A model generated the notes under the pieces. That model worked only from the letters and a program-made list of their open reading frames with translations, did no database searches and had not been told where the DNA came from. Source: Prochlorococcus marinus str. MIT 1013 (GTDB lineage Bacteria > Cyanobacteriota > Cyanobacteriia > PCC-6307 > Cyanobiaceae). Taken from it: a DNA stretch of 64,000 nucleotides. The translations under genes were made by a program, and so were the position numbers. The stretch covers positions 868,001 through 932,000 of the forward strand of contig NZ_CP114778.1 in NCBI RefSeq assembly GCF_027359395.1. Direction: 5' to 3'. Shown in pieces: positions 1 to 26,923 of the stretch; positions within the stretch are counted from its first letter, which is position 1; every line of letters starts with the position of its first letter.

Positions 1-1043
1 TTGCTAAATCTGGAATTGAAATAATCATATTTAAAGGAGAACTTGATCATACTGATAAAACAACAGATCATATTATTTCATTAGCGAGTGAAATAATAAC
101 ATTACCAGATTCCTTAGAAAAATCTTGTCAAAAAGTTCTAAATAGTTCAATTGATATTCTTCTATATCTTGATATTGGAATGTCAGTAAAAACATATTTC
201 ATGTCTTTATCAAGGCTAGCTCTAGTTCAAGTCCTTCATAGTGGACACCCACAAACTTCAGGTTCTCAAAATATGGATTACTACATAACCGCATCGCAAA
301 AAGAAAATGAGAATTCTGATAAGTTCTTTTCAGAAAGATTGATAAGAATGACTAGACTTCCAGTAAATTATAGTCTACCTACAATTTTAAATAGTACTAT
401 TAAAGCTTCAGATCTAGATATTTATGAGGATGATTTTATAATTGGACTTCCTCATACTTTATTTAAATACCACCCCGACTTTGATGATATTCTAGACAAA
501 GTACTTGAGGAAATTCCTCATTCACGTTTATTGTTTTTCGAAGGTGTTAGAGAATACAATACAAAGGAATTATTGTCCAGGTGGGAACAAAATAGTAAGT
601 ACATTTCAAGTAAATTAATAATTTGTCCACGTGTTAAATTTGATGATTATTTAACAATTTCAAAAAGATTTGATATCGTACTTGATACTATTTATTTTGG
701 GATGGGTAATACCTTTTTTCAGGCAATGGCATTGGGTATTCCAGTTGTTACTTTGTTACCTGATAAACCACAAGGTGGATGCGTTTCTGCAGGTTATAAG
801 CAGATGGGTATTTTAAATCCACCTATAGCAAAGTCAAAGAAAGAATATATTTCAATATGCAAAAAACTAGCATTTGATAATTCATACAGGAAAAATATTA
901 GTAATCAAATACTTTTAAAAGCAAAAGATAATTTATTTAATGATCAAACAGTTTATAGACAATATATAGACTTCTTTCAAAAGGCATTGAAAGCTGCATA
1001 TAAAAAAGAATTACTTCCAAAAAATTGGGAACCATTAGAATAA
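1..1043 (+). CDS. TPR/SPINDLY-type glycosyltransferase, C-terminal part (5' truncated by window)
   Basis: The reading frame is open from base 3, so the gene begins before the window; the first internal ATG at 180 is not the true start. The visible 346 residues match the C-terminal half of the protein at 14119-16263: both have an xIGMS..Y/F..SLxxLALVQVxxxGHxxTSG segment and a late (Y/F)FGxGNTFxxAMxxGIP segment. Those segments correspond to the nucleotide-sugar-binding half of GT41 (O-GlcNAc transferase/SPINDLY-like) enzymes. The role is probably glycosyl transfer to a protein or glycan in the cytoplasm; donor and acceptor cannot be read from the sequence. The N-terminal TPRs are inferred from the paralogue and are not visible here. 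It converges on rfbB, with only 6 bases between the two stop codons. Confidence 0.7.
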   Translation, partial: AKSGIEIIIFKGELDHTDKTTDHIISLASEIITLPDSLEKSCQKVLNSSIDILLYLDIGMSVKTYFMSLSRLALVQVLHSGHPQTSGSQNMDYYITASQKENENSDKFFSERLIRMTRLPVNYSLPTILNSTIKASDLDIYEDDFIIGLPHTLFKYHPDFDDILDKVLEEIPHSRLLFFEGVREYNTKELLSRWEQNSKYISSKLIICPRVKFDDYLTISKRFDIVLDTIYFGMGNTFFQAMALGIPVVTLLPDKPQGGCVSAGYKQMGILNPPIAKSKKEYISICKKLAFDNSYRKNISNQILLKAKDNLFNDQTVYRQYIDFFQKALKAAYKKELLPKNWEPLE

Positions 1044-14118: not shown

Positions 14119-16263
14119 TTAATCTTTTATGTGATGGTAAGAACTTTCTTTTCTCCCATTTTCTATAGCCTCATTGAAGAAATTGTAGTAATCCTTATAT
14201 ATTTCTGAATCATTAAATAAATACTTTTGAGCTTTTTCAATTAATTCCTTTTTAGTATTCTTTAGAAAAAAATCATTTTTAGAGTATAATTTACACCAAT
14301 TTATATAATCTTGAGGAGATTTTGCTATTGGTGGATTATCAACCTTCATTTGTGCATATCCTGCTGATGCTATTTTTGTTTTTTGATTGTGAGGGTAGGT
14401 AATGAATGGGATACCAAATACCATTGCTTCGTAAAAAGTATTGCCACTACCAAAATAGAATGGATCCAACATGATATGGAAGCTTCTTGTTGTATTCATA
14501 AAGTCATCAATTGACATTCTATCGAGAAAAATTGATCTTTCTATTAATAATTTATTTTTGTTCCTCCATCTATCTTGAAATACTTTTGTATTGTAATCAC
14601 ATTTATCTTTTAAGAGGATAAAATATGAATTATCTATGTTTATTAATATTGATTCTAAAATTTCATCGTAACTTGGATGTATTTTAAATAATGACTGAGT
14701 TAATCCTATTAGAAATTTATTTTTAGGATTAATTATATCTAGGTTTCTTAAATTGCTCTCATTTATTTTAGGAGCTGAGTAGTTAAATGGCAATCTTCTA
14801 AATCTTTTTAATTTCTCTGAATAACTTGAATCGGAGCTCGCAGGTTCTAATCCATATGTTATAAAATAATCTATGTTTTTTATGCCTGATGTATTTGCAT
14901 GACCCAAGCTTGTAACTTGTACTAAGGCTAACTTTGACATTGCAAGGATATAGCAATAACTAGACATTCCGATTTCTGGATAAAATAATAAATCAAGATT
15001 ATCTGAAAGTATTACTTTTGCTCCAACCTGCGGAGATTCAGGTAAATATATTATTTTTTTAAATAAGGTTTTAATCCTTTCTATTCCTGATGATTTATTT
15101 GTTTCTGGTGGTAAATAGACTGTAACATCAAGATCAGTTTTTAATAAGTCAATTAAAACATTAATGTATAATTTGCCAACGGTATGGTTGTCGTTTAAAA
15201 ATTGAGAGCAAATACCGATTTTCAGTGATTCTCTTTTATGAGATGACTTGAAATATTTGCTTAATGAGAATTTATCGTATTCCATACCTTTTACCATTAA
15301 AAGTGTATTGCTGAAATCCTCTAATATTTCCTTGTCATCTTTTCTGTTCTGATATGCTAAGTAAAATATACAGTTCGAATTGAACGTATATATTTTTCCT
15401 ATATGAAATTCTTTATTTATTTTTATTTTATTTATAGAATTTTTATATTGAATTCTCTCATTATCAATTTGTTCATTACTCTTCATTATCGGAGAAAAGC
15501 GTAAATTTGCATTAATAAAAAAATGAATATCATTAGGAGCTTTTTGCGATGCAATTGAATAATATTTATACGCTTCATTTTCTCTACCAAGTACTTCCAA
15601 TATGTTTCCCATGTTTGAATATGGTTCAATTAAATCAGATCTTAAATCTATGGCTTTCGATGTCGATAGTATTGCTTCTTCTGGCTTTCCAAGAGCTGTC
15701 AATATAATTCCAAGATTTGAATGAATTTCAGCATAATTTGGATTTATTTCAATTCCTTTTTTCATTAATATTTCAGCTTCTTTAAAATCTCCAAGCTTTT
15801 TCAATATTGTCCCTAGATTCAAATAAGCTTCCGAAAAATTAGGATTAATTTTAATAGCTTTTCGATAAGATATTTCTGCCTCTTTAAATTGGCCTAGTTC
15901 GCACAATACTATTCCTAGATTGTAATGAGCTAATGTGTAATCAGGTTTTAGTTTAATTGCTTTGCGTTGATATTTTACAGATTCTTCATATTGCCTAAGA
16001 TCTTTCAAAATATTTCCATAATTTGAAAATACTCTCGGATCATTACAATCTTGATCAAATAAGCATTGATAGTATTTTTTAGCTTTGGATAGATCCCCTT
16101 TTGAATGAAAATTAAATGCTTGATCTCTAATTTCTTCTTTACTTAGTTTGGGATAGCTATCACTAGATATAGATATATTTTCTTGATTATCTTCGATTGA
16201 TAGTGGAACTGGGAATACAGTTACTTGTTTGTTAAGAAAATTTTGTTTACCAGGTCCTTCCAT
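14119..16263 (-). CDS. TPR protein with C-terminal OGT/SPINDLY-like glycosyltransferase domain
   Basis: A 714-residue protein. Residues 1-50 form the TPR-family cassette (VTVFPVPLSIEDNQENIS, then KEEIRDQAFNFHSKGD). About five TPR units (34 residues each, such as RVFSNYGNILKDL and AHYNLGIVLCELGQ) follow to about residue 250. The C-terminal half (from about 345) reads GICSQFLNDNHTVGKLY... and later FYFGSGNTFYEAMVFGIPFI, as in GT41-type transferases, though more divergent than the enzyme at 19524. It resembles the truncated protein at 1-1043. A likely cytoplasmic glycosyltransferase; its donor could be a sugar made by the neighbouring genes. Confidence 0.8.
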   Translation of the reverse strand: MEGPGKQNFLNKQVTVFPVPLSIEDNQENISISSDSYPKLSKEEIRDQAFNFHSKGDLSKAKKYYQCLFDQDCNDPRVFSNYGNILKDLRQYEESVKYQRKAIKLKPDYTLAHYNLGIVLCELGQFKEAEISYRKAIKINPNFSEAYLNLGTILKKLGDFKEAEILMKKGIEINPNYAEIHSNLGIILTALGKPEEAILSTSKAIDLRSDLIEPYSNMGNILEVLGRENEAYKYYSIASQKAPNDIHFFINANLRFSPIMKSNEQIDNERIQYKNSINKIKINKEFHIGKIYTFNSNCIFYLAYQNRKDDKEILEDFSNTLLMVKGMEYDKFSLSKYFKSSHKRESLKIGICSQFLNDNHTVGKLYINVLIDLLKTDLDVTVYLPPETNKSSGIERIKTLFKKIIYLPESPQVGAKVILSDNLDLLFYPEIGMSSYCYILAMSKLALVQVTSLGHANTSGIKNIDYFITYGLEPASSDSSYSEKLKRFRRLPFNYSAPKINESNLRNLDIINPKNKFLIGLTQSLFKIHPSYDEILESILINIDNSYFILLKDKCDYNTKVFQDRWRNKNKLLIERSIFLDRMSIDDFMNTTRSFHIMLDPFYFGSGNTFYEAMVFGIPFITYPHNQKTKIASAGYAQMKVDNPPIAKSPQDYINWCKLYSKNDFFLKNTKKELIEKAQKYLFNDSEIYKDYYNFFNEAIENGRKESSYHHIKD

Positions 16264-16274
16264 CTTTTAGTATT

Positions 16275-16430
16275 TTAGCTGTCGCATTTAATTACTATAA
16301 ATCTACAGGTTAATTCTCCACTATTTAAATCTAATATTAATGCATTCAAAATATTCGAATCTCTTGGTATTGCACTAATCAATCTAGTACCTGGTGCTCC
16401 ACCACACCCATTAGATCCATCAGATTGCAT
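16275..16430 (-). CDS. possible small ORF or gene fragment
   Basis: A 51-residue frame from an ATG at 16430 to TAA at 16275, just upstream of the TPR gene at 16263 and on the same strand. The sequence (MQSDGSNGCGGAPGTRLI..., ending RFIVIKCDS) is protein-like. The frame stays open for another 11 codons before the ATG, so it may be a fragment of a longer lost gene. The family is not recognised. Confidence 0.3.
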   Translation of the reverse strand: MQSDGSNGCGGAPGTRLISAIPRDSNILNALILDLNSGELTCRFIVIKCDS

Positions 16431-16686
16431 TTTATATGAATTAAGATTACTTAGAGTGAACTACTCTTAGCATCCATTGCTTACTTTGCTGATTTAACAC
16501 TCACTTTTAATTTGTTGTATCGCTCCTATTGCAGCCGTCGCCTTTTGGAGTTTTCTTCTGTGAATCTATTTGATTGTTATTTGGAATAAACCCATCATGA
16601 CAAACGCTAAAAGCGCTCTAAATTCTGCTCTAACTTTTTTTCTAGTTCCTCCAAATGAAATAGCATAACTAGAATCTTAAATATTT

Positions 16687-16734
16687 ACTTGCATTGTATG
16701 CAGGGGATCAGCGATTCGAGTCCGCTTGGCTCCA
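16687..16734 (+). repeat. tRNA-Ala 3'-end fragment, copy 2 (putative attachment site)
   Basis: Second copy of the tRNA-Ala 3' end, same orientation as the one at 8261-8312. It has TTGCATTGTATGCAG (anticodon-stem-like, with TGT where GGC is expected), GGATCAGC, a T arm with one mismatched pair (AGCGA/CCGCT), and TGGCTCCA at 16727-16734. No 5' half is present. Downstream bases (CATTTAGATTTCTAAG...GCAATAGAT) resemble those after copy 1. The two copies bound an 8.4-kb module. Confidence 0.7.
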
Positions 16735-16865
16735 TTTAGATTTCTAAGTTATAGCAATAGATTTAGAAGTATTTAGGTTGGCGTAAATAATAAGATATTC
16801 CTTGGCATAGGAAGATATAACTATTTTTCGCTCAGTTATAACCTCATTTTTATCTTTGTAATCCT

Positions 16866-17039
16866 ATGGGGGGGGGGAAATGGTTACAACTATTAAGGAA
16901 GCAACTTAAATCTGAGTCTGGAAAGGCTGGGATTTGCACACAATGCTTTGAAATAAAAAGCAGTTCAATTCAGTTAAGTCTTCAATACGCGCATCTGAAG
17001 CTTGAGTATGCCTTACAAGTTATAATCCTAATAAAATAG
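16866..17039 (+). CDS. small ORF beginning in a ten-G tract (possible phase-variable gene)
   Basis: An ATG at 16866 whose G is the first of ten consecutive G bases (16868-16877) opens a frame encoding MGGGKWLQLLRKQLKSESGK and 37 further residues, ending in TAG at 17037-17039. The stop is 20 bases before the start of the TPR gene at 17060, so the two could form an operon. Residues such as SLQYAHLKLEYALQ look like a natural helix. Losing or gaining one G would put the frame out of register. No family is recognised. It could also be a decayed gene. Confidence 0.4.
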   Translation: MGGGKWLQLLRKQLKSESGKAGICTQCFEIKSSSIQLSLQYAHLKLEYALQVIILIK

Positions 17040-17059
17040 ATTCTTTAAATACAATAGAT

Positions 17060-18541
17060 GTGACTGAGGGGAAAAGGAATCAAAAGCAAGCAGGCTCTGA
17101 AGTGAAAACATTCTCAGTCCCATTTGCTTTAGGAGAAATTAAAGAGAAAAAAACTATTCCTACCAATAAAGTTACTAAATATTCTAAAGAAGAAATTATT
17201 AATCAAGCAATTAACTTTCACCTAAAAGGTAATATTCAAAAAGCTTTAAAATATTATCGTTATTGTCTTAACCAAGGGGTTCAAGACGCAAGAGTTTTTT
17301 CTAATTATGGGGCAATATTAAAAGATCTTGGCAATTTAAAGGAAGCTGAAGGAGCTTATCGAAACGCAATTAAAATTAAACCTAATTTCGCTGCGGCTTA
17401 TTCTAATTTAGGTATTGTTTTAAAAGATCTTGGCAATTTAAAGGAAGCTGAAGAATCTTATCGGCTCGCAATTAAACTTAAACCTGATTTCGCTGAGGCT
17501 TATTCGAATCTGGGCGACATATTAAATAATCTTGGTAAATTCAAAGAAGCAGAGTTATTACTAAATAAAGCAATTAAAATTAAACCTGATTTAGCTGAGG
17601 CTTATTCCAATTTAGGTATCGTTTTAGTAGAACTAGGCAAACTAGAAAAAGCAGCATTATCGATACGCAAAGCCATCGAACTGAATCCTGATTTTGCTAA
17701 TGCTCATTTATATTTGGGAGTTATTTTGAAAGATCTTAGCAATTTACAAGAAGCTGAAGCTTCCACGAGAAAAGCAATTGGACTCAATCCTGACTCCCCA
17801 GATGCTCATGCCAATCTTGGAAGTATCTTGAGAGATCTTGGCAATTTACAAAAAGCAGAATTATCTACTCGCAAAGCAATTGAACTCAATCCTGATTTTG
17901 CTAATGCTCATTTAAATCTTGGAGTCATTTTGAAAGATCTTGATAATTTAAAAGACGCTGAAACCTCCATGAAAAAAGCCATTAAACTTAATCCTGATTT
18001 CGCAAATGCTCATTTAAATCTAGGAACTATATTAAAAGAAATTGGCAAATTACAAGAAGCAGAAAAATCATATTGCAAAGCAATTGAACTCAATCCTGAT
18101 TCCCCAGATGCTCATGCCAATCTTGGAAGCATCTTGAGAGATCTTGGCAATTTACAAAAAGCAGAATTATCTACTCGCAAAGCAATTGAACTCAATCCTG
18201 ATTTTGCTAATGCTCATTTAAATCTTGGAGTCATTTTGAAAGATCTTGGTAATTTAAAACACGCTGAAACCTCCATCAGAAAAGCCATTAAACTTAATCC
18301 TGACTTAGCAAATGCTCATTTAAATCTAGGCACTATATTAAACGAAATTGGTCGTTTAGATGAAGCTATGCTGTGCTATGAGCAAGCAATTAATCTTGAT
18401 AACAAACTCGACTCCGCTCTCTCTGGAATAGGGAGTATACTTCTAAAAAATGGTAATCATTCAGATGGTATTCATAAATTAAGAGAAGCTAATGGTTCCA
18501 TCCGTTTTAATCCAAAAAAATCCTCCATAACTATTAATTAA
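17060..18541 (+). CDS. TPR repeat protein (TPR only)
   Basis: A 493-residue protein made almost wholly of TPR units. It opens with the family cassette (KTFSVPFALGEIKEKK near residues 17-32, then KEEIINQAINFHLKGN) and continues with about twelve 34-residue repeats of the AYSNLGIVLKDLGNLKEAE type. There is no catalytic domain. The start is GTG at 17060, overlapping an ATG at 17058 that is followed immediately by TGA. The same 20-base start region recurs at 24997-25016. A three-repeat block is duplicated almost perfectly inside the gene (see the repeat entry). The next gene starts on the base after its stop codon. Probably a scaffold that presents a partner protein to the neighbouring oxygenase or glycosyltransferases. 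Confidence 0.85.
   Translation: MTEGKRNQKQAGSEVKTFSVPFALGEIKEKKTIPTNKVTKYSKEEIINQAINFHLKGNIQKALKYYRYCLNQGVQDARVFSNYGAILKDLGNLKEAEGAYRNAIKIKPNFAAAYSNLGIVLKDLGNLKEAEESYRLAIKLKPDFAEAYSNLGDILNNLGKFKEAELLLNKAIKIKPDLAEAYSNLGIVLVELGKLEKAALSIRKAIELNPDFANAHLYLGVILKDLSNLQEAEASTRKAIGLNPDSPDAHANLGSILRDLGNLQKAELSTRKAIELNPDFANAHLNLGVILKDLDNLKDAETSMKKAIKLNPDFANAHLNLGTILKEIGKLQEAEKSYCKAIELNPDSPDAHANLGSILRDLGNLQKAELSTRKAIELNPDFANAHLNLGVILKDLGNLKHAETSIRKAIKLNPDLANAHLNLGTILNEIGRLDEAMLCYEQAINLDNKLDSALSGIGSILLKNGNHSDGIHKLREANGSIRFNPKKSSITIN
17797..18250 (+). repeat. intragenic duplication of a three-TPR block (306-base period)
   Basis: The DNA from about 17797 recurs nearly unchanged 306 bases later, at about 18103. 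For example GATGCTCATGCCAATCTTGG occurs at 17801 and at 18107, and the next 100 or so bases differ at very few positions. 306 bases is exactly three TPR units of 102 bases, so the frame is kept. This points to recent unequal recombination or slippage within the gene. Confidence 0.85.
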
Positions 18542-19138
18542 ATGAAGAAAATAACATTAGATTTAGGGAATAAAACTCCTAACTTTATTGGCTCCTGGTG
18601 TATAGAACCAATCTTAATTTGCGATGATCTTATCTCCTACTTTGAACTTAATATCGCCAAGCAAAAAAGTGGGTACAGTGGAAGTGGTTTAAATCCTGAG
18701 ATAAAAGATAGTGTTGATATTACTATGAATCCCAAAGATATCATTCTTCCAGGACATGAGGCATTTAAAAAATATTTTGATCAACTTTTTGAATGCTATA
18801 AAAACTATGTAGAGGAATGGACTTTCTTAAACAAGATATCTGAAAAATTGGAAATTGGTTCTTTTAATTTACAAAGATATAAACCTGGTCAACATTTTAA
18901 GGAAATACATACAGAAAGATCTTCTTTAGCTACTCTTCACCGTATTTTTGCTTTTATGACATATTTAAATGATGTAGAAGAAGGAGGTTCAACATATTTC
19001 AGTCATTATGATCTTGAAATACAACCACAAAGAGGATTAACTTTGATTTGGCCTGCTGAATGGACTCACGCACATAAAGGAAACATACTTAAAGAAGGGT
19101 CAAAATATATCATTACGGGTTGGATTAATATTTTCTAA
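18542..19138 (+). CDS. 2-oxoglutarate/Fe(II)-dependent oxygenase, prolyl-4-hydroxylase-like
   Basis: A 198-residue protein with the double-stranded beta-helix motifs of prolyl 4-hydroxylases. YKPGQHFKEIHTE gives His123 and Glu125 (Glu replaces the usual Asp). Further along come FMTYLNDVEEGGSTYF and WPAEWTHAHKG with His178, and Lys188 is the probable 2-oxoglutarate contact. The usual reaction is hydroxylation of a protein side chain, using O2 and 2-oxoglutarate. The ATG follows directly on the stop codon of the TPR gene (TAA then ATG), so translation is coupled. That suggests the TPR protein is its partner or substrate carrier. Confidence 0.85.
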   Translation: MKKITLDLGNKTPNFIGSWCIEPILICDDLISYFELNIAKQKSGYSGSGLNPEIKDSVDITMNPKDIILPGHEAFKKYFDQLFECYKNYVEEWTFLNKISEKLEIGSFNLQRYKPGQHFKEIHTERSSLATLHRIFAFMTYLNDVEEGGSTYFSHYDLEIQPQRGLTLIWPAEWTHAHKGNILKEGSKYIITGWINIF

Positions 19139-19523
19139 TCAGTTGTTATTAACAGCATTTGATATTTAATAAGTTGATAAAAAAGACACGAAATAAACTA
19201 CAAAACATAGAAATAAAATCATCATAATTAAGTAGCTATTAAAGTTAGTCTCATACGATTGAACCATTAATAATTCTAAATTCAAGGTCAGACATCATAA
19301 TTGAAAGAATAATCGATTTGATAATAAGTAATTTCTGCGTAAACTCTCGTGACACTAATAAGAGGAGATTACAAATTAAAAGTTTCTCAAAGACGATATT
19401 AACTTAGAAAGATCGTAGGAAATAATTAAAAGACATCGCTACTTTATGTCACTCAAAATAAAACAACAATAATTGCAGCATTAGTAGTAAAATTGCTGAA
19501 GTTAAAAAGATTGAAAAGTATAG
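19139..19523. other. intergenic region, nothing recognised
   Basis: About 385 AT-rich bases between the oxygenase and the TPR-OGT gene. No ORF with coding character, tRNA or strong hairpin was seen. It presumably holds the promoter for the gene at 19524. Confidence 0.4.
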
Positions 19524-21779
19524 ATGGAGCAATCTGATAAAAAAGATCAAGAAAAAAAGAAGATCACTGAAGCAAAAACATTCTCTGTTCCGTTTACTTT
19601 AGGAGAAAATAAAGAAAATATTAGTATTAATACTAATATTTCTTCTGAACCTTCTAAAGAAAAAATAATCAATCAAGCATTTAAGTTTCATTCACAAGGA
19701 AACATTTTAGAAGCAGAAAAATATTATCAACAATTCATCAATCAGGGTTTCACTGACCATAGAGTCTTTTCTAATTATGGAGTCATATTAAAAGACCTTG
19801 GCAAATTACAAGAAGCAGAATTATCATACCGCAAAGCAATTGAACTTAACCCTGATTTCTTTCAAGCTCATTCAAATCTAGGAAATATATTAAAAGATCT
19901 TGGTAAATTACAAGAAGCAGAATTATCATACCGCAAAGCAATTGAACTTAATCCTGATTGCGCAGATTCCCATTTAAGTCTGGGAAGCATATTGATTGAG
20001 CTTGGCAAATTACAAGAAGCAGAATTATCAACTCGCAAAGCAATTGAAATCAAGCCTGATTACCCAGAAGCGCATTACAATCTAGGAAATAGATTAAAAG
20101 ATCTTGGAAAATTACAAGAAGCAGAATTGTCACACCGCAAGGCAATTGAACTTAAACCTAATTACGCAGAAGCATATTTGAATTTGGGTCACATATTAAT
20201 AGATCTTGGTGATTTACAAGAAGCAGAATTATACACACGCAAAGCAATTAAACTTAAACCTGATTTCGCAGAAGCTTTTTACAATCTGGGAAACATTTTT
20301 AGAGTACTTGGAAAATTAGAAGAAGCAGAATTATCGACTCTTAAAGCGATTGAACTTAAACCTGATTTCGCAAAGGCTTATTCTAATCTGGGATGCATAT
20401 TGAAAGAGCTTGGGAATTTCGGTGATGCTATAAATCAACTCAAGCAAGCACTAAAATTGAACAATCAATTATCATTAGCTAAGGCTGCTTTAATTGCAAC
20501 TAAAGGCACTATATGCGATTGGGATGATGAAGAGACTCATAATATTTGGCTAAAATCACTTGGTATAAAAGGAACATCTATTTGCCCATGGGATCTATTC
20601 TCATTAGAAGATAATCCTTTAAAGCATTTAAAAAGATCTGAAAAATTTTATAAAGAAAAAATATTTACTCGACCAAGCAAACTTATTAAATCTTCCAAAA
20701 GAAATTTAATACATATAGGTTATTTCTCTGCTGATTTCCGGACTCATCCTGTAATGCAACTAATTGCTCGATTACTTGAGCTACATGATAAATCGAAGTT
20801 TAAAATATATTTATACTCGTTTGTGCCAAAAGAAGATGAATATACGGAAAGAGCAAGAAAGTCTGGATGCATATTTAGAGATATAAGTAAATTAAACAAT
20901 ATCGAATCGATAGCTTTAGCAAGGGATGATCAAATTGATATTGCTGTAGATCTAATGGGTTATACCAAACATAATAGATTTTCAATATTTTCTTCTAGAG
21001 TCGCCCCTATTCAAATAAACTATTTGGGATACCCTGCTTCAGTTGGATCTAATGTTATTGATTATATTCTCGCAGATAAGATTGTAATTCCAGATAATTA
21101 TGAGAAATTCTACTCAGAGAAGATACTAAGTATGCCCAATTGTTATCTATGCATTGATGATAAAATAGAAATAAGCAATAAACCTATTTCCCGAAAAGAT
21201 TTCAACCTGCCTGAGCAAGGATTTATATTTACCTGCTTTAATAATAATAACAAAATCACTCCAAAGGAGTTTGATATTTGGATGAGATTGCTGAAAAAAA
21301 TAAAAGGGAGTGTACTTTGGTTGCGCAAGCCAAATGAATTGGCAATTGAGAATTTATATATTGAAGCAGAAAAAAGAAATGTAGATCCAAAACGATTAAT
21401 ATTCGCAAATAGAGTTCCATTTGATTTGCATTTAGCAAGGCATTCTCTTGGAGACCTTGGACTTGATACTTTTAACTTTAATGGTCATAAAACGACTTGT
21501 GATGCATTATATGCAGGATTACCTACCTTAACTAAATTAGGAGAAAACTTTGTTGCAAGAGTTTCATCCAGTCTATTAACTTCAATAGGCATGCCAGAAC
21601 TAATTACATATGATGAAAATCAATATGAAGAAACAGCACTAAGACTAGCAAGTAGTCATAATGAAATTTTTAAATTAAAATATAAACTTGAAAAACTGAA
21701 AAACAAATCATCACTTTTTAATTCAAAATTATACACTAAAGATCTTGAAAAGATTTATCTTAATTTAGTTGAAAAATGA
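19524..21779 (+). CDS. TPR-O-GlcNAc transferase-like protein (GT41, SPINDLY family)
   Basis: A 751-residue protein. The family cassette comes first (AKTFSVPFTLGENKENIS near residues 18-35), then about seven to eight TPRs to residue 310. A linker with the GTICDWDD segment leads to a well-conserved GT41 catalytic region: HIGYFSADFRTHPVMQLIAR near 392, APIQINYLGYPASVG near 496, FNNNNKITPKEFDIWMRLL, and LDTFNFNGHKTTCDALYAGLP near 650. These match O-GlcNAc transferase and SPINDLY, which glycosylate protein Ser/Thr residues using UDP-GlcNAc or GDP-fucose. The GDP-sugar genes directly downstream make a GDP-deoxysugar donor conceivable. Starts with ATG at 19524. Confidence 0.9.
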   Translation: MEQSDKKDQEKKKITEAKTFSVPFTLGENKENISINTNISSEPSKEKIINQAFKFHSQGNILEAEKYYQQFINQGFTDHRVFSNYGVILKDLGKLQEAELSYRKAIELNPDFFQAHSNLGNILKDLGKLQEAELSYRKAIELNPDCADSHLSLGSILIELGKLQEAELSTRKAIEIKPDYPEAHYNLGNRLKDLGKLQEAELSHRKAIELKPNYAEAYLNLGHILIDLGDLQEAELYTRKAIKLKPDFAEAFYNLGNIFRVLGKLEEAELSTLKAIELKPDFAKAYSNLGCILKELGNFGDAINQLKQALKLNNQLSLAKAALIATKGTICDWDDEETHNIWLKSLGIKGTSICPWDLFSLEDNPLKHLKRSEKFYKEKIFTRPSKLIKSSKRNLIHIGYFSADFRTHPVMQLIARLLELHDKSKFKIYLYSFVPKEDEYTERARKSGCIFRDISKLNNIESIALARDDQIDIAVDLMGYTKHNRFSIFSSRVAPIQINYLGYPASVGSNVIDYILADKIVIPDNYEKFYSEKILSMPNCYLCIDDKIEISNKPISRKDFNLPEQGFIFTCFNNNNKITPKEFDIWMRLLKKIKGSVLWLRKPNELAIENLYIEAEKRNVDPKRLIFANRVPFDLHLARHSLGDLGLDTFNFNGHKTTCDALYAGLPTLTKLGENFVARVSSSLLTSIGMPELITYDENQYEETALRLASSHNEIFKLKYKLEKLKNKSSLFNSKLYTKDLEKIYLNLVEK

Positions 21780-21830
21780 CTTTAACCTGCGCTATTAGTA
21801 ATGTAAAGTAATTAAGTTGATATTTGCTTA

Positions 21831-22322
21831 ATGATTACTGAAAAATTATCTGAAGAGATCTGGAGAACCTGTGTAGATTCCATTCCAATATTTGGTATTG
21901 ATATGATTATATTTTCTCAAAAATATGGGGTATTAATGGGTCGCAGAATTAACAATCCAGCAAAAGGTAAACTTTTTGTACCAGGTGGAAGAGTTTATAA
22001 AAACGAACGAATTATAGATGCTTTTAATAGAATATTAATAAGTGAAACAGGTTTGATTTTTTCTTTTAATAAAACCACTTCATTGGGTTTATACGAACAC
22101 TTTTATAACGTTACATCTTGGTCAACTTCAGAATGCAGTACGCATTACATTATAGAAGCAAGATTAATAGAAATCGAACCAGAAAATATTAAACAAAAAA
22201 TAAATTTAAATGAGCAGCATTCAAATTTCGAATGGATTTCTCTAGAAGATATTCAATCAAATACTATTCATTCCTATTCAAAGATGTATTTAAATAAAAT
22301 TAAAGATCTAAAAGCTAAATGA
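21831..22322 (+). CDS. gmm: Nudix hydrolase, GDP-mannose mannosyl hydrolase-like
   Basis: A 163-residue Nudix protein. NNPAKGKLFVPGGRVYKNE near residues 43-61 followed by ERIIDAFNRILISETGL is the modified Nudix box typical of Gmm/NudD, which hydrolyses GDP-mannose (or GDP-glucose) to GDP and the free sugar. The length is normal for the family. It lies 51 bases after the TPR-OGT gene and converges on the ColD-like gene. Gmm genes commonly accompany GDP-fucose and GDP-colitose pathways in O-antigen clusters, consistent with the two genes that follow. Confidence 0.85.
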   Translation: MITEKLSEEIWRTCVDSIPIFGIDMIIFSQKYGVLMGRRINNPAKGKLFVPGGRVYKNERIIDAFNRILISETGLIFSFNKTTSLGLYEHFYNVTSWSTSECSTHYIIEARLIEIEPENIKQKINLNEQHSNFEWISLEDIQSNTIHSYSKMYLNKIKDLKAK

Positions 22323-22359
22323 ACAATTTATTTAGAAAAAATCCAATTCAATATAAATG

Positions 22360-23532
22360 TCATGTGAAATTGTAGGGTTCTGCAACTTTTTGAAACTCAG
22401 TACATATTCTATGAACATCGCTTATATCTATATCTGCATTAACAGGAAGATAAATTCCGTATAGATGAACTTGATCAGCATATTTTAGAGAAGTACTTCT
22501 TCCACTATATTCCTTCCAAAATGGTTGTTGACCAATACTCCCAGCGATAAGAGGTCTACTTTCAATATTTTTATTCTTTAAATGAATCCAAACTTCTTCA
22601 GGATTCTTGACTAAAGTAGCATAGGCAAAACTTGAAATAAAATCGTTAGAAGATTCTTGACACCAAAAATTTGAAAGTTCTTCCCTATATTTATTAAATA
22701 GAATTGAACGCTTTGAACAATATTCATCTAAAATGCTCATTTGCATCAAGCCCAAAAAAGCATTCAATTCAGTAGACCTTAAATTATATCCAGGAAAATA
22801 AAATGTATATAAATCTCTAAAATCTGAGGTGTTGTATTTTGATCTTAAATTCTTTTGAAATTCCAAATCAAGGTTTCTTCCCCAACCATGAGCCCTTAAT
22901 GACTTGCTTACTTGATTAAACTCATGATCATTACTACAAAGACATCCCCCCTCAATGGTAGAAATATGATGTCCATAAAAGAATGAAAATGTTGAAGCAA
23001 GACCAAATGATCCTAGGGATTTTCCAGAAACGGTAGAACCTAATGATTGGCAATTATCCTCTAAGAGACGTATATCAAATTCTTCGCAAATATCTAGGAT
23101 TTTCTCAATAGATGAATTATGACCAAGAACATGGACTAAAATCAAACTTCCAATGTCTTCTTCCTTTATTAACTTATATAAATTATCAATATTAACACCT
23201 AAATTAATAGGATCTGTATCCAATAGATACGGTTGATAACCTAATTGAATAAATGGTGATACTGTGGTTGACCAAGATAAGGCTGGTATACCAATTTTTT
23301 TATTCCTTAAATCTTTAAAAAATAGATTTGTAGTTGCCATTAATAAATTGGCAGAAGAGCCACTGTTAATAAAAGTTGAATCATTTACCTCGATATATTG
23401 TGCAAATAAAGATTCAAATTCAACTACTTTTTCTCCTTGAGTCAGTCTTGGATAAGTCTTAATCCATTCAGATAATCTATCAAGATGTTCTTTAGGTATT
23501 GTTTCTGAAGCTAAGCCTATTTGTTTATACAT
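22360..23532 (-). CDS. colD: GDP-4-keto-6-deoxymannose 3-dehydratase (ColD-like)
   Basis: A PLP/PMP-dependent DegT-family enzyme of 390 residues in which the normal Schiff-base lysine is replaced by histidine: TFSFFYGHHISTIEGG has His188-His189. His at position 188 is the hallmark of ColD, which removes the 3-hydroxyl of GDP-4-keto-6-deoxymannose on the way to colitose, in place of transamination. The DTDPINLGVNID and LLEDNCQSLGS segments are also as in the family. It lies 30 bases downstream of the ColC/Fcl-like gene on the same strand. The upstream steps (manC, gmd) are not in this window. Confidence 0.85.
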   Translation of the reverse strand: MYKQIGLASETIPKEHLDRLSEWIKTYPRLTQGEKVVEFESLFAQYIEVNDSTFINSGSSANLLMATTNLFFKDLRNKKIGIPALSWSTTVSPFIQLGYQPYLLDTDPINLGVNIDNLYKLIKEEDIGSLILVHVLGHNSSIEKILDICEEFDIRLLEDNCQSLGSTVSGKSLGSFGLASTFSFFYGHHISTIEGGCLCSNDHEFNQVSKSLRAHGWGRNLDLEFQKNLRSKYNTSDFRDLYTFYFPGYNLRSTELNAFLGLMQMSILDEYCSKRSILFNKYREELSNFWCQESSNDFISSFAYATLVKNPEEVWIHLKNKNIESRPLIAGSIGQQPFWKEYSGRSTSLKYADQVHLYGIYLPVNADIDISDVHRICTEFQKVAEPYNFT

Positions 23533-23562
23533 TTTGTAAAAATTAAAAATCTTTGATGAATA

Positions 23563-24483
23563 TCATCTATGGCACTCTAAATAATGAGAATAAGTCTTAT
23601 TAATCCCTAATTCTAAATCATACCTTGGGAACCAACCCAAATCATTTATTTTCTTCACATCTAACAACTTTTGCTTCATTCCTGTAGGTTTACTAAGATT
23701 AAATGTAAAAGATCCTTCAAACCCTAAAATCTTAGAGATTTTTTTATAGTAGTCAAAAATCGAATAATCTTCTCCTCTACCAATATTAATTACATTAGGC
23801 AATTCCTTTATCCTAGGTAAAGAGAACCAAACTGCATCAGCAAAGTCTTTCGCATACATAAATTCTCTTCTAACAGTACCATCTCCCCAAATTTCAATTT
23901 GTTTTATATTATTAAGTTTAGCTGTATGTAGCTTTACTATTATTGAAGCAATTAAATGAGAACGTTTAGGATTATAGTTATCATATTTACCATACAAATT
24001 ACAAGGCATTAAAGTAATATAATTTCTCGATTTATCTTCGAATCTTAAGTAATCACATAATCTTTGTGCCGCTATCTTAGCGATTGCATAACCTTCATTT
24101 GTAGGCTCCAATAATCCATTTAATAAATATTCTTCTTTTAATGGATTAGGTCCATTCTTAGGATACATACAAGAACTTCCCAAATTAATAATATTTTTCA
24201 CTCCCATAATTGCTGCTTCAGATATTAAATTACAACCTATTTCAAGATTCTCAATTAGAAATTTTGAGGGGTTTGCGATATTTGCATGAATTCCACCAAC
24301 TAATCCAGCGGCATGAATAATATATTCTGGCCTATTAGCCTTCAAATAACTTCTTATTTGTTCTCTATTGGTTAAATCTAATTCTTTACGAGAAGGAGTT
24401 AAAACAGAATAATTGCAGGCATCATGATGCTCCTTTATATTACGTCCAACCATCCCAGTTCCTCCTGTTAGAAGAACACGCAT
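23563..24483 (-). CDS. GDP-L-colitose/GDP-L-fucose synthase-like epimerase-reductase
   Basis: A 306-residue NADPH-dependent short-chain dehydrogenase of the GDP-fucose synthase type. It shows MRVLLTGGTGMVGRN, IIHAAGLVGGIHANI, NLGSSCMYPKNGPNPLKEEYLL, then the catalytic YAIAKIAAQRLCDY, and MPCNLYGKYDNY. GDP-fucose synthase (Fcl/WcaG) and colitose synthase (ColC) are close relatives, and sequence alone does not separate them. Its position 30 bases upstream of a ColD-like dehydratase favours ColC, the epimerase/reductase that finishes GDP-L-colitose. Fcl is the alternative. Confidence 0.88.
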   Translation of the reverse strand: MRVLLTGGTGMVGRNIKEHHDACNYSVLTPSRKELDLTNREQIRSYLKANRPEYIIHAAGLVGGIHANIANPSKFLIENLEIGCNLISEAAIMGVKNIINLGSSCMYPKNGPNPLKEEYLLNGLLEPTNEGYAIAKIAAQRLCDYLRFEDKSRNYITLMPCNLYGKYDNYNPKRSHLIASIIVKLHTAKLNNIKQIEIWGDGTVRREFMYAKDFADAVWFSLPRIKELPNVINIGRGEDYSIFDYYKKISKILGFEGSFTFNLSKPTGMKQKLLDVKKINDLGWFPRYDLELGINKTYSHYLECHR

Positions 24484-24660
24484 AATAATTTTGCGAAATT
24501 AAATAAAGACTTTCTGAAAAAATCTACTTTAGGAAGTCCTTTTGATAGTAAAACATAGCATCAAGAGATATATTTTTTTTTCTTGGTCATCATTTCATTA
24601 AATTAATTCTTTATGAGCCAGCAGAGAGAATTGGGGTTTGAATTAATTCCATGACGATTA

Positions 24661-24765
24661 CTAGATTTTCCTCGCTCGATTGTTATGTGAGGAATTAGCC
24701 GCTAATCCAAACATTAACTTTGGTTGCTTTGCATAGGCAGAAACGCAACTACTATAATTCTCTAC
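24661..24765 (-). pseudogene. decayed paralogue of the gene at 7391 (C-terminal fragment)
   Basis: Read on the minus strand, this stretch ends in SSHNNRARKI followed by TAG. Over its last 30 codons it aligns without gaps to the C-terminus of the 119-residue protein at 7391 (16 of 30 residues identical, including the ends LAA.SS..NR.RKI). In-frame stops lie just upstream, so the remainder is lost. A second short coding-like stretch on the plus strand (24816-24893, containing ARVFILKEAGLI) is also present but unassigned. The region 24484-25000 is thus a graveyard between the colitose genes and the next TPR gene. Confidence 0.6.
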
Positions 24766-25000
24766 CTAAAGTTAACAAAGTTCCCGATACGATTCCACAA
24801 GGCAAATAGGTTTCTGCCGAAGGGAAAGCCGCTAGGGAATCAGCAAGAGTCTTTATTCTTAAGGAGGCTGGACTAATTACTCCCCCTAACTGAGCAATTA
24901 ACTCATGCTTATTTGCAGCGGGTCAATTTCTTTTGAAAGTTAAAAAACTAATTGGGGTATGTAATATATATAAACTAATAAACTTATAAAAAAAACAGAT

Positions 25001-26923
25001 GTGACTGAGGGGAAAAAATATCAAAAGCAAGAACGATCTGAAGGGAAAACATTCCCAGTTCCATTCGCTTTACAAGAAATCAAAGAGAGTATTTCTACTT
25101 CTCTCAAAAACCCCAAGAAATCGACTAAAGAGCAAATAATTAATCAAGCATTTAAATTTCATTCTCAAGGAAAAGTCAGAGAAGCAGCAGAATATTATCA
25201 ATACTGTATAAAGCAAGGTTTTGCTGATACCAATGTTTTATCGAATTATGGAATGATATTGAAAGATATTGGTAAATTTAAACAAGCCGAGATTTTATTT
25301 AGAAAAGCAATTGAACTTAATCCTAATTCTGCTGAGGCGCATTCAAATCTGGGAAATGTTTTGATAGATCTTGACCAATTAAAAGAAGCAGAATTATCGA
25401 CGCGCAAAGCTATTAAAATCAAGCCTGATTTTTCAGAAGCTTTCTCTAATCTAGGAAATATATTAAGCAGAATTGGTAAACTAAAAGAGGCCGAAATAGC
25501 AGCTTACAAATCTATTGAGATTAATCCTAATTCATCTCAGAACCATTTCAATCTTGGAGTAATATTAAAAGATCTAGGTAAACTAAAAGAAGCAGAATTA
25601 TCAACTCGGAAATCTATAGAAATAAATCCAATTTCCTCTCAAGCTTATTTAAATCTAGGGATAATATTAAAAGATCTAGGTAAACTAAAAGAAGCAGAAT
25701 TATATACTCGTAAAGCTATAGAAATAAATCCAAGTTCCTCTCAAGCTTATTTAAATCTAGGGATAATATTATTCGGTTTTACAAATATAGAAAAATTAAA
25801 AGAAGCAGAATTATATACTCGGAAATCTATAAAAATTAATCCTAATATATCACAAGCATATTTGAACCTTGGAAATATATTAAAAGCATCAGGAAAGCTT
25901 GATGAGGCTGAAAAATCTATTAGAAAGGCCATTCAACTTACACCTAACAATCATCATGCTTATTTCAACCTAGCATTACTAAAGCTACTGCAAGAAGACT
26001 ATTCTACTGGCCTTGAATACTATGAATTTAGATTCACAAAGAAACCAGCTGTATATCTATATGGGAAACCAATAATCAAGAGAAGTGAAACGAATGAATT
26101 CAAACAAGGAAGAAAGCTATTAGTTATTAGTGAGCAGGCAGCAGGTGACATAATCTTCTATATGCGTTATTTATTGGCTTTAAAGGAACAAAAGTTAGAA
26201 GTTTCATTTTGTGCCCCCGAAAAATTACATAGCTTGATTAAGGATTCAGGAATTGATTCAAATCCTATTTCTCCTGAGGAATGTAGTTTAATTAATGAAG
26301 GAGAATGGATTCCTTTGCAATCTCTACTAAGATATTTCTGCGTTAATCCTTATAATCCAGTTATCAATTATGTATATATTAAATCTAAAGAATCACTTAA
26401 ATTAAAATGGCATAATATTCTATCTAAAGAGAAAAAACCAATCATTGGTATTAATTGGCAAGGTAGCAAAGAACTTGAGCAAAGTTCATACCCTGGACGT
26501 TCAATACCTTTAGAAAAATTCTCAATAATTCTTGAAAAAAATGATATTAGTTTCGTCTCTTTCCAAAAAGGGTTTGGCTCTGAGCAAAAAGAAAACTGTC
26601 TTTTCAAAGATAATTTTGTTAAATGTCAGGACAAGATTGATGAGATATGGGACTATTCAGAGACTGCTGCAATAATAGATAATTGCGATTTAATAATCAC
26701 CATAGATTGTAGTATTGCCCCATTAGCGGCTGGAATGGGTAAAGAGGTTTGGCTAATGCTCAAAAAAATACCTTTTTGGACATGGGGTCTAGCGGGTGAA
26801 AGAACATTCTGGTACCCAACTATGAGGTTATTTCGACAGAAAGGGTTCTCAAATTGGGATGAGGTAATGGAAAGAATATCTATAGAATTAAATAAATTCA
26901 TTAAAAATAAAAATGAATTATAA
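25001..26923 (+). CDS. TPR protein with heptosyltransferase (GT9)-like C-terminal domain
   Basis: A 640-residue protein. The N-terminal cassette (GKTFPVPFALQEIKESIS, then KEQIINQAFKFHSQGK) and about eight TPRs reach residue 310, as in its paralogues. The C-terminus differs from the OGT-like ones: LLVISEQAAGDIIFYMRYL, KPIIGINWQGSKELEQSSYPGRS and IDNCDLIITIDCSIAPLAAGMGKEVW are the pattern of ADP-heptose transferase-like (GT9-fold) domains often joined to TPRs. The start is GTG at 25001, overlapping ATG-TGA exactly as at 17060. The probable activity is glycosyl transfer; donor and acceptor are unknown. Confidence 0.83.
   Translation: MTEGKKYQKQERSEGKTFPVPFALQEIKESISTSLKNPKKSTKEQIINQAFKFHSQGKVREAAEYYQYCIKQGFADTNVLSNYGMILKDIGKFKQAEILFRKAIELNPNSAEAHSNLGNVLIDLDQLKEAELSTRKAIKIKPDFSEAFSNLGNILSRIGKLKEAEIAAYKSIEINPNSSQNHFNLGVILKDLGKLKEAELSTRKSIEINPISSQAYLNLGIILKDLGKLKEAELYTRKAIEINPSSSQAYLNLGIILFGFTNIEKLKEAELYTRKSIKINPNISQAYLNLGNILKASGKLDEAEKSIRKAIQLTPNNHHAYFNLALLKLLQEDYSTGLEYYEFRFTKKPAVYLYGKPIIKRSETNEFKQGRKLLVISEQAAGDIIFYMRYLLALKEQKLEVSFCAPEKLHSLIKDSGIDSNPISPEECSLINEGEWIPLQSLLRYFCVNPYNPVINYVYIKSKESLKLKWHNILSKEKKPIIGINWQGSKELEQSSYPGRSIPLEKFSIILEKNDISFVSFQKGFGSEQKENCLFKDNFVKCQDKIDEIWDYSETAAIIDNCDLIITIDCSIAPLAAGMGKEVWLMLKKIPFWTWGLAGERTFWYPTMRLFRQKGFSNWDEVMERISIELNKFIKNKNEL

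Follow-up and report, generated by a model that had tools for sequence, protein, structure and literature searches.

The stretch of DNA analysed here (the window) comprises 64,000 nucleotides of Prochlorococcus marinus MIT 1013 and corresponds to bases 868001-932000 of its genome, a single contig of 2,046,712 bases (designated G000). Our analyses have identified in this window several members of a family of tetratricopeptide repeat (TPR) proteins that share an N-terminal head and carry a variety of C-termini; crossovers between the family members occur in the TPR DNA, the two ends of the proteins are combined nearly independently of each other, and the arrays in which the genes are located turn over between species. 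Members are labelled by their coordinates in the genome (G000:C1), so that, for example, 885060 is window gene 17060. The features of the window that belong to this family or are linked with it are as follows.

1 to 1043, plus strand: 3' part of a member; the whole gene (G000:C1:866575-869043) encodes 822 amino acids (aa) with 8 TPRs and a GT41-like C-terminus, its head lying to the left of the window
14119 to 16263, minus strand: member of 714 aa; head, 5 TPRs, divergent GT41-like domain
16138 to 16263, minus strand: head of gene 14119, starts MEGPGKQNFLNKQVTVFPVPLSIEDNQENISI
17060 to 18541, plus strand: member of 493 aa; head, 11 TPRs, conserved 43-aa tail, no catalytic domain
17060 to 17185, plus strand: head of gene 17060, starts KTFSVPFALGEIKE; residues 1-37 predicted disordered
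18291 to 19849, plus strand: exchange tract of 1559 base pairs (bp), 98.1% identical to G000:C1:1022424-1020866
18542 to 19138, plus strand: gene for a 2-oxoglutarate (2OG)-Fe(II) oxygenase, prolyl-4-hydroxylase-like, abutting the TPR-only gene 17060 with no gap
19524 to 21779, plus strand: member of 751 aa; head, 7 TPRs, canonical GT41/O-GlcNAc-transferase domain
19524 to 19655, plus strand: head of gene 19524, starts KTFSVPFTLGENKENISI
25001 to 26923, plus strand: member of 640 aa; disordered head, 8 TPRs, weakly GT9-like C-terminal domain
25001 to 25126, plus strand: head of gene 25001, starts KTFPVPFALQEIKESIS; residues 1-39 predicted disordered

An earlier note on this DNA had proposed that genes 14119, 17060, 19524 and 25001 share their N-terminus, and the first ~84 residues of the four proteins indeed align, with 22 invariant columns. 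The sequence pattern that it described is common to all four, but the portion KE.I..QA..FH..G...SNYG is merely the first TPR, and the family-specific part is therefore the head of ~40 residues that precedes this repeat. The truncated frame at 1-1043, suspected of belonging to the same family, is the end of gene 866575-869043, which has a canonical head and a C-terminus that is 99.2% identical to that of member 830847_833039. The head is polar and lysine-rich and usually contains the motif [VI]KT[FY]xVPFxLxE..xEN[IL], whose main residues are highly conserved over 202 sequences (viz. T 86%, F 88%, V 88%, P 92%, F 84%, L 91%, and N 82%). In AlphaFold models the predicted local distance difference test score (pLDDT) is <50 over residues 1-37 of gene 17060 and 1-39 of gene 25001, and the helices at residues 43-55 and 59-71 of gene 17060 form the first TPR; on these pLDDT values the head was rejected as a part of the TPR groove or as a folded cap. 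Heads on other kinds of protein were not found in G000, where all credible matches are TPR members or head fragments.

The C-termini of the window genes differ in kind. The two different OGT-like domains of the earlier note are, in gene 19524, a canonical GT41 domain and, in gene 14119, a divergent GT41-like domain. The former matches Glyco_transf_41 (PF13844) with an E value of 1.3e-72 (245 bits, cut-off 25), can be aligned with fly and human OGT along the entire catalytic region and keeps the conserved UDP-sugar-binding NGHxT..D region (NGHTTSMD, compared with NGHKTTCD in fly OGT). The latter matches PF13844 at 28 bits (cut-off 25), and the C-terminus of the gene at 1-1043 is likewise divergent. 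The divergent domains are nearest to HMW1C-type N-glucosyltransferases and to OGT/SPY (NF049992 with E values of 1.4e-9 and 5.7e-17; PDB entries 8p0q and 3q3e); the score of gene 14119 against NF049992, the model for HMW1C-like N-glucosyltransferases, is 37 bits and does not reach the curated cut-off of 1000. Gene 17060 consists, as claimed for a member lacking a catalytic domain, of TPRs and a 43-residue tail followed by a separate oxygenase gene at 18542, whose product matches PF13640 (44.2 bits, cut-off 27) and the solved prolyl hydroxylases 3itq and 5hv0 (E value 2.7e-8). The heptosyltransferase-like C-terminus suggested for gene 25001 is plausible rather than proven: this domain has no Pfam match, a PDB sequence look-up with it returned nothing useful, and paralogue 1019272 matches Glyco_transf_9 weakly and below the cut-off (E value 0.007, 16.1 bits, cut-off 22). 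The model of gene 25001 has a C-terminal domain of alternating helices and strands; searches with the full-length fold gave whole-length matches to SPY and OGT but were dominated by the TPRs, so that the absence of GT9 from the fold matches carries no meaning. Matches of NCBIfam models for PilW, MamA and Tgl were put down to generic TPR similarity.

A profile made from the four window N-termini has 46 matches in the genome, with E values down to 6.7e-45, far above chance. When open reading frames of at least 150 codons that match this profile are counted within the genome stretches fetched, the family comprises 39 members, which together occupy ~68 kilobases (kb), or 3.3% of the genome, and it is thus about 10 times larger than the four genes described earlier. 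Four arrays (~821-895, 1019-1034, 1179-1208, and 1474-1490 kb) hold most of the members and the others are scattered. All have the same layout of a head, a number of TPRs (3-11 in G000 and 2-13 in relatives) and one of at least 14 types of C-terminus. In G000, ten of the C-termini are GT41-related (three canonical and seven divergent), nine are GT9-like (two subtypes) and four are sulfotransferases, while the remainder comprise several kinds of 2OG oxygenase, one S-adenosylmethionine (SAM) methyltransferase, three TPR-only members with the conserved 43-residue tail and unassigned single cases. Pfam families matched include Sulfotransfer_3, 2OG-FeII_Oxy_5 and Methyltransf_25 as well as weak GT9 and 2OG-FeII_Oxy_3. 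Further types come from related single cells, viz. methyltransferases of the TylF and FkbM kinds, a CDP-glycerol transferase, a radical SAM/SPASM type and an SGNH-like type, the last assigned from a reading of its motifs only. Each TPR-only member with the 43-residue tail has an oxygenase gene within 0-6 bases after it, and this pairing recurs at 1021577/1022174 and 1193122/1192138 in G000 and in the related genome G004. Pairs of a TPR-only and a prolyl-hydroxylase-like protein, which look as if a fusion had been split, are seen, again 0-6 bases apart, at window 17060-19138 and at G000:C1:1021577-1022986, 1192138-1193721 and 1182956-1185411, the TPR protein of the last pair having no head.

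The N-terminal profile has matches in 39 of 41 genomes of the same GTDB genus, with 1-46 matches per genome. Some of the low counts reflect the TPRs alone: searched with a head-only profile, three of these genomes (G003, G029, and G030) have no head. Among 400 genomes of the taxonomic family (Cyanobiaceae), full-length matches are almost confined to that genus and elsewhere it is usually the TPR part alone that is matched; with the head-only profile, true heads outside the genus number 1-2 each in single genomes of three other genera. No match to the N-terminal profile was found outside this group among 386 genomes across the phylum, and the 79 related loci obtained from named genomes all come from Prochlorococcus single cells or metagenome-assembled genomes. 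The head is thus nearly restricted to one genus and is not a general property of unrelated TPR proteins. In relatives the arrays are found at the same sites, with the same core genes on either side, and hold different sets of members: behind guaA (neighbouring genes, here and below, were named by reading their sequences) there are 6 members in G000, >10 in the matching regions of G004 and G005, and 2 in the stretch of G006. These multi-copy genes, with array contents that differ between relatives, are not single-copy orthologues. A phage origin was rejected, the head having no match in phage records or viral contigs.

Some variants of the head were also observed. In four members of G000 the head is of another kind, M(K/S)GFG or MKGLG with a lysine-rich stretch after it. 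Heads of this kind are also present elsewhere in the family on other TPR proteins, e.g. of the sulfotransferase type, with a C-terminal part that is 62% identical; this form may be older than, or ancestral to, the heads of the family described here. TPR proteins throughout the picocyanobacteria carry an M(K/S/R)GFG head with a lysine-rich stretch (e.g. G000:C1:789891-792233), frequently encoded by just one gene of ~780 codons. In two members, G000:C1:1027056-1028756 and L109:5860-7758, the head motif is tandemly duplicated at the N-terminus and both copies are well preserved. Head remnants with stop codons at G000:C1:730274-730450 and 1182716-1182832 are apparently dead members.

The suggestion that C-termini are exchanged by recombination in the TPR DNA is supported by switches of identity within this DNA and by a near-random association of heads with C-terminal classes. 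Pairs of paralogues show 98-100% DNA identity in one part and 65-80% in the other, the switch lying in the TPR DNA. In four pairs of G000 it is the 3' part that is nearly identical and, over roughly one repeat inside the TPRs, identity falls to 65-80%; in two further pairs the identical part is anchored at the N-terminus.

851807/863588: C-anchored tract of 1916 bp, 99.9% identical, starts in the TPRs
830847/866575: C-anchored tract of 1816 bp, 99.7% identical, starts in the TPRs at codon 216 of 866575
1179543/1187431: C-anchored tract of 1021 bp, 99.8% identical, starts in the TPRs
885060/1022174: C-anchored tract of 1559 bp, 98.1% identical, starts in the TPRs (window 18291-19849)
836589/839973: N-anchored tract of 649 bp, 99.8% identical, from the gene start into the TPRs, followed by an oxygenase in one and an unknown domain in the other
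1379997/1377360 of G005: N-anchored tract of 1008 bp, 100% identical, from 47 bp upstream to TPR codon 321

The tract within the window runs from the TPRs of gene 17060, across the oxygenase gene and the intergenic DNA, into the first TPRs of gene 19524, which is the next member, and therefore both of its crossovers are located in TPR DNA. The two genes of the G005 pair are neighbours, which beyond their tract encode an unknown domain and a sulfotransferase.

The association of the two ends was examined in 170 classified proteins from G000, its relatives and single cells. The proportion of protein pairs with the same C-terminal class is 0.08-0.13 in every bin of head identity from 35% to 80%, compared with a random value of 0.10 computed by hand from the class frequencies. 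On a tree of the heads, the array changes 17 times (33.5 +/- 2.0 when shuffled) and the C-terminal class 108 times (122.7 +/- 3.1 when shuffled), the latter a weak signal. The class is thus nearly random with respect to the heads while the array is tracked by them, which indicates that heads belong to places and that C-termini move. The DNA upstream of the genes is homologous within arrays and largely array-specific, indicating that promoter and head form one 5' module.

With moderate confidence, we interpret these genes as a modular, lineage-specific family of modifying enzymes that is reshuffled through its TPR DNA and is likely to alter surface (glyco)proteins or glycans. The members would be cytosolic enzymes of one Prochlorococcus clade, in which the 5' module, viz. 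the upstream region of the gene and the disordered head with its TFxVPFxL motif, would stay with its chromosomal array, and the 3' module, viz. the last TPRs, the catalytic domain, the downstream spacer and sometimes an oxygenase gene and the next head, would be swapped between paralogues. The TPR array would have two roles, as an adaptor that binds substrates and as the region of homology for recombination, the latter owing to its 102-bp repeats, which share ~70-80% of their DNA sequence. Most of the C-termini are enzymes by which groups on proteins or glycans are added or altered and, as the TPRs of OGT select protein substrates, adaptor-plus-enzyme proteins are the simplest reading of this layout. 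The location of the window array amid nucleotide-sugar and surface-glycan-type genes suggests a target at the cell surface, where the enzymes may modify proteins or glycans; reshuffling might then be favoured as it varies the surface chemistry met by phages or grazers, and the head could be a docking motif for a shared partner.

Several observations weigh against this interpretation. The window array is the only one that lies clearly among glycan genes. No confident family could be assigned to the C-termini of 839973, 844073, 1189380, 1196519 and 1473930 or to the SGNH-like type. Some of the GT9-like tracts in G005 start ~25 codons after the last TPR, so that not every boundary is in a TPR, and the linkage of head and C-terminus is not zero, since the 108 class changes on the head tree are fewer than in any of the shuffles (minimum 114). 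Lastly, the ratio of nonsynonymous to synonymous changes (pN/pS) in the head motif, 0.57, is only moderate.

It is conceivable, if rather doubtful, that the head has no function and travels with the promoter and start codon, its copies being kept alike by recombination and gene conversion of 5' ends. The homology of upstream DNA within arrays agrees with this explanation, as do recent copies of 5' modules, e.g. 790248-790619 and 786223-786594 of G004 (372 bp, 99.7% identical). However, a functionless motif should diverge between arrays as the flanking tail does, and the motif does not: most upstream regions and tails are unlike between arrays (mean tail identity 0.34 within and 0.25 between), yet motif identity hardly changes (0.60 within and 0.59 between), which speaks against mere hitchhiking and favours selection on the motif. 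The pN/pS values, which are rough, being raw proportions from recombining sequences, are likewise lower in the motif than in the tail (0.85), with 0.38 in the first TPR. A common docking or sorting signal, as proposed in the earlier note, is plausible for the head and fits a conserved linear motif in a tail that is predicted to be disordered. The more far-reaching idea, that all members dock by the TFxVPF motif to one scaffold or export-coupled complex and so form a reshuffled platform for the strain-specific decoration of the same surface molecule, appears unlikely; were it true, the docked platform would be a bacterial combinatorial system of post-translational modification.

The family could also be a largely neutral by-product of the ease with which repeat-rich genes duplicate and recombine, with most copies of little function, an explanation that we regard as improbable. 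The degenerate head fragments with stop codons (730274-730450 and 1182716-1182832) and a copy number that varies between species from none or one up to 46 would be expected under it, but the reading frames of almost all members are open, the conserved NGH.T..D region is retained in the OGT domain, the arrays are large in several species and 3.3% of a streamlined genome is spent on them. A role in low-light photosynthesis, e.g. in the assembly or stability of photosystem II, is very hard to credit: low-light strains are enriched in TPR Pfams more than in any others, but the study concerned (PMC11357015) counts TPR Pfams only, whereas here glycosyl-, sulfo- and methyltransferases and oxygenases follow the TPRs in the same protein, and the head is missing from three genomes of the genus (G003, G029, and G030).

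The interpretation as a reshuffled family of modifying enzymes invites comparison with several known systems. Fusions of TPRs with OGT are known, and constant modules that are combined with varying enzyme domains are known from toxins and cellulosomes. TPR-fused GT41 enzymes (viz. O-GlcNAc transferase, SPINDLY, and the bacterial XcOGT) have the same TPR array followed by GT41, and gene 19524 is by sequence a clear member of this group; here, however, GT41 is only one option among many interchangeable C-termini that follow the same head and TPRs. The divergent GT41-like domains have the HMW1C-like soluble protein N-glucosyltransferases among their nearest named relatives, but the scores here are far under the curated cut-off and the domain is preceded by a TPR array and the Prochlorococcus head. 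Prochlorosins, a large family in a small Prochlorococcus genome, combine a conserved leader with a hypervariable C-terminal part; there the variable part is a substrate peptide and one enzyme serves all, whereas here the variable part is the enzyme. In cellulosomes many unrelated catalytic domains share one small module, the dockerin, which is folded and has a known partner, in contrast to a head that is predicted to be disordered. Polymorphic toxins possess a constant N-terminus and swapped C-terminal enzyme modules, with recombination in the shared part, whereas the C-termini of the present family are biosynthetic or modifying enzymes; none of their Pfam matches is toxin-like, and no immunity gene is evident beside the members in the lists of neighbouring open reading frames, which were not searched systematically.

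No description of a modifying-enzyme family of this build was found in the open literature, subscription journals lying outside the search. A single related remark was encountered there, on the enrichment of TPR Pfams in low-light strains, which is attributed to photosystem II (PMC11357015); the TPR proteins concerned are probably the same genes counted at the level of TPR Pfams, and the published excess is thus probably in part that of one modular family. No such family, head, C-terminal variety or recombination is described in the portion of that paper considered here. Prochlorococcus is a classic example of a streamlined genome, and still several percent of the genome is devoted, in species of this clade, to one combinatorial family. 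The family offers a natural experiment on how domains are shuffled in a free-living bacterium, its crossovers being resolved almost to the base, and is a candidate route by which an abundant marine cyanobacterium may vary its surface chemistry.

A few other features are located at or within the arrays. The idea of mobile islands at tRNA genes finds little support, as transfer RNAs near the members are only scattered, with one, a tRNA-Ser (G000:C1:1208097-1208187), adjoining the right edge of the third array. A small protein with a weak FG-GAP match, possibly of a surface type, is encoded at G000:C1:1026300-1026932 between members of the second array. The third array is bordered on its left by the gene for a lysine/alanine-rich protein made of 72-bp tandem repeats (G000:C1:1178167-1179192), and orthologues of this protein that are 64-65% identical occupy the same place in G002 and G004.

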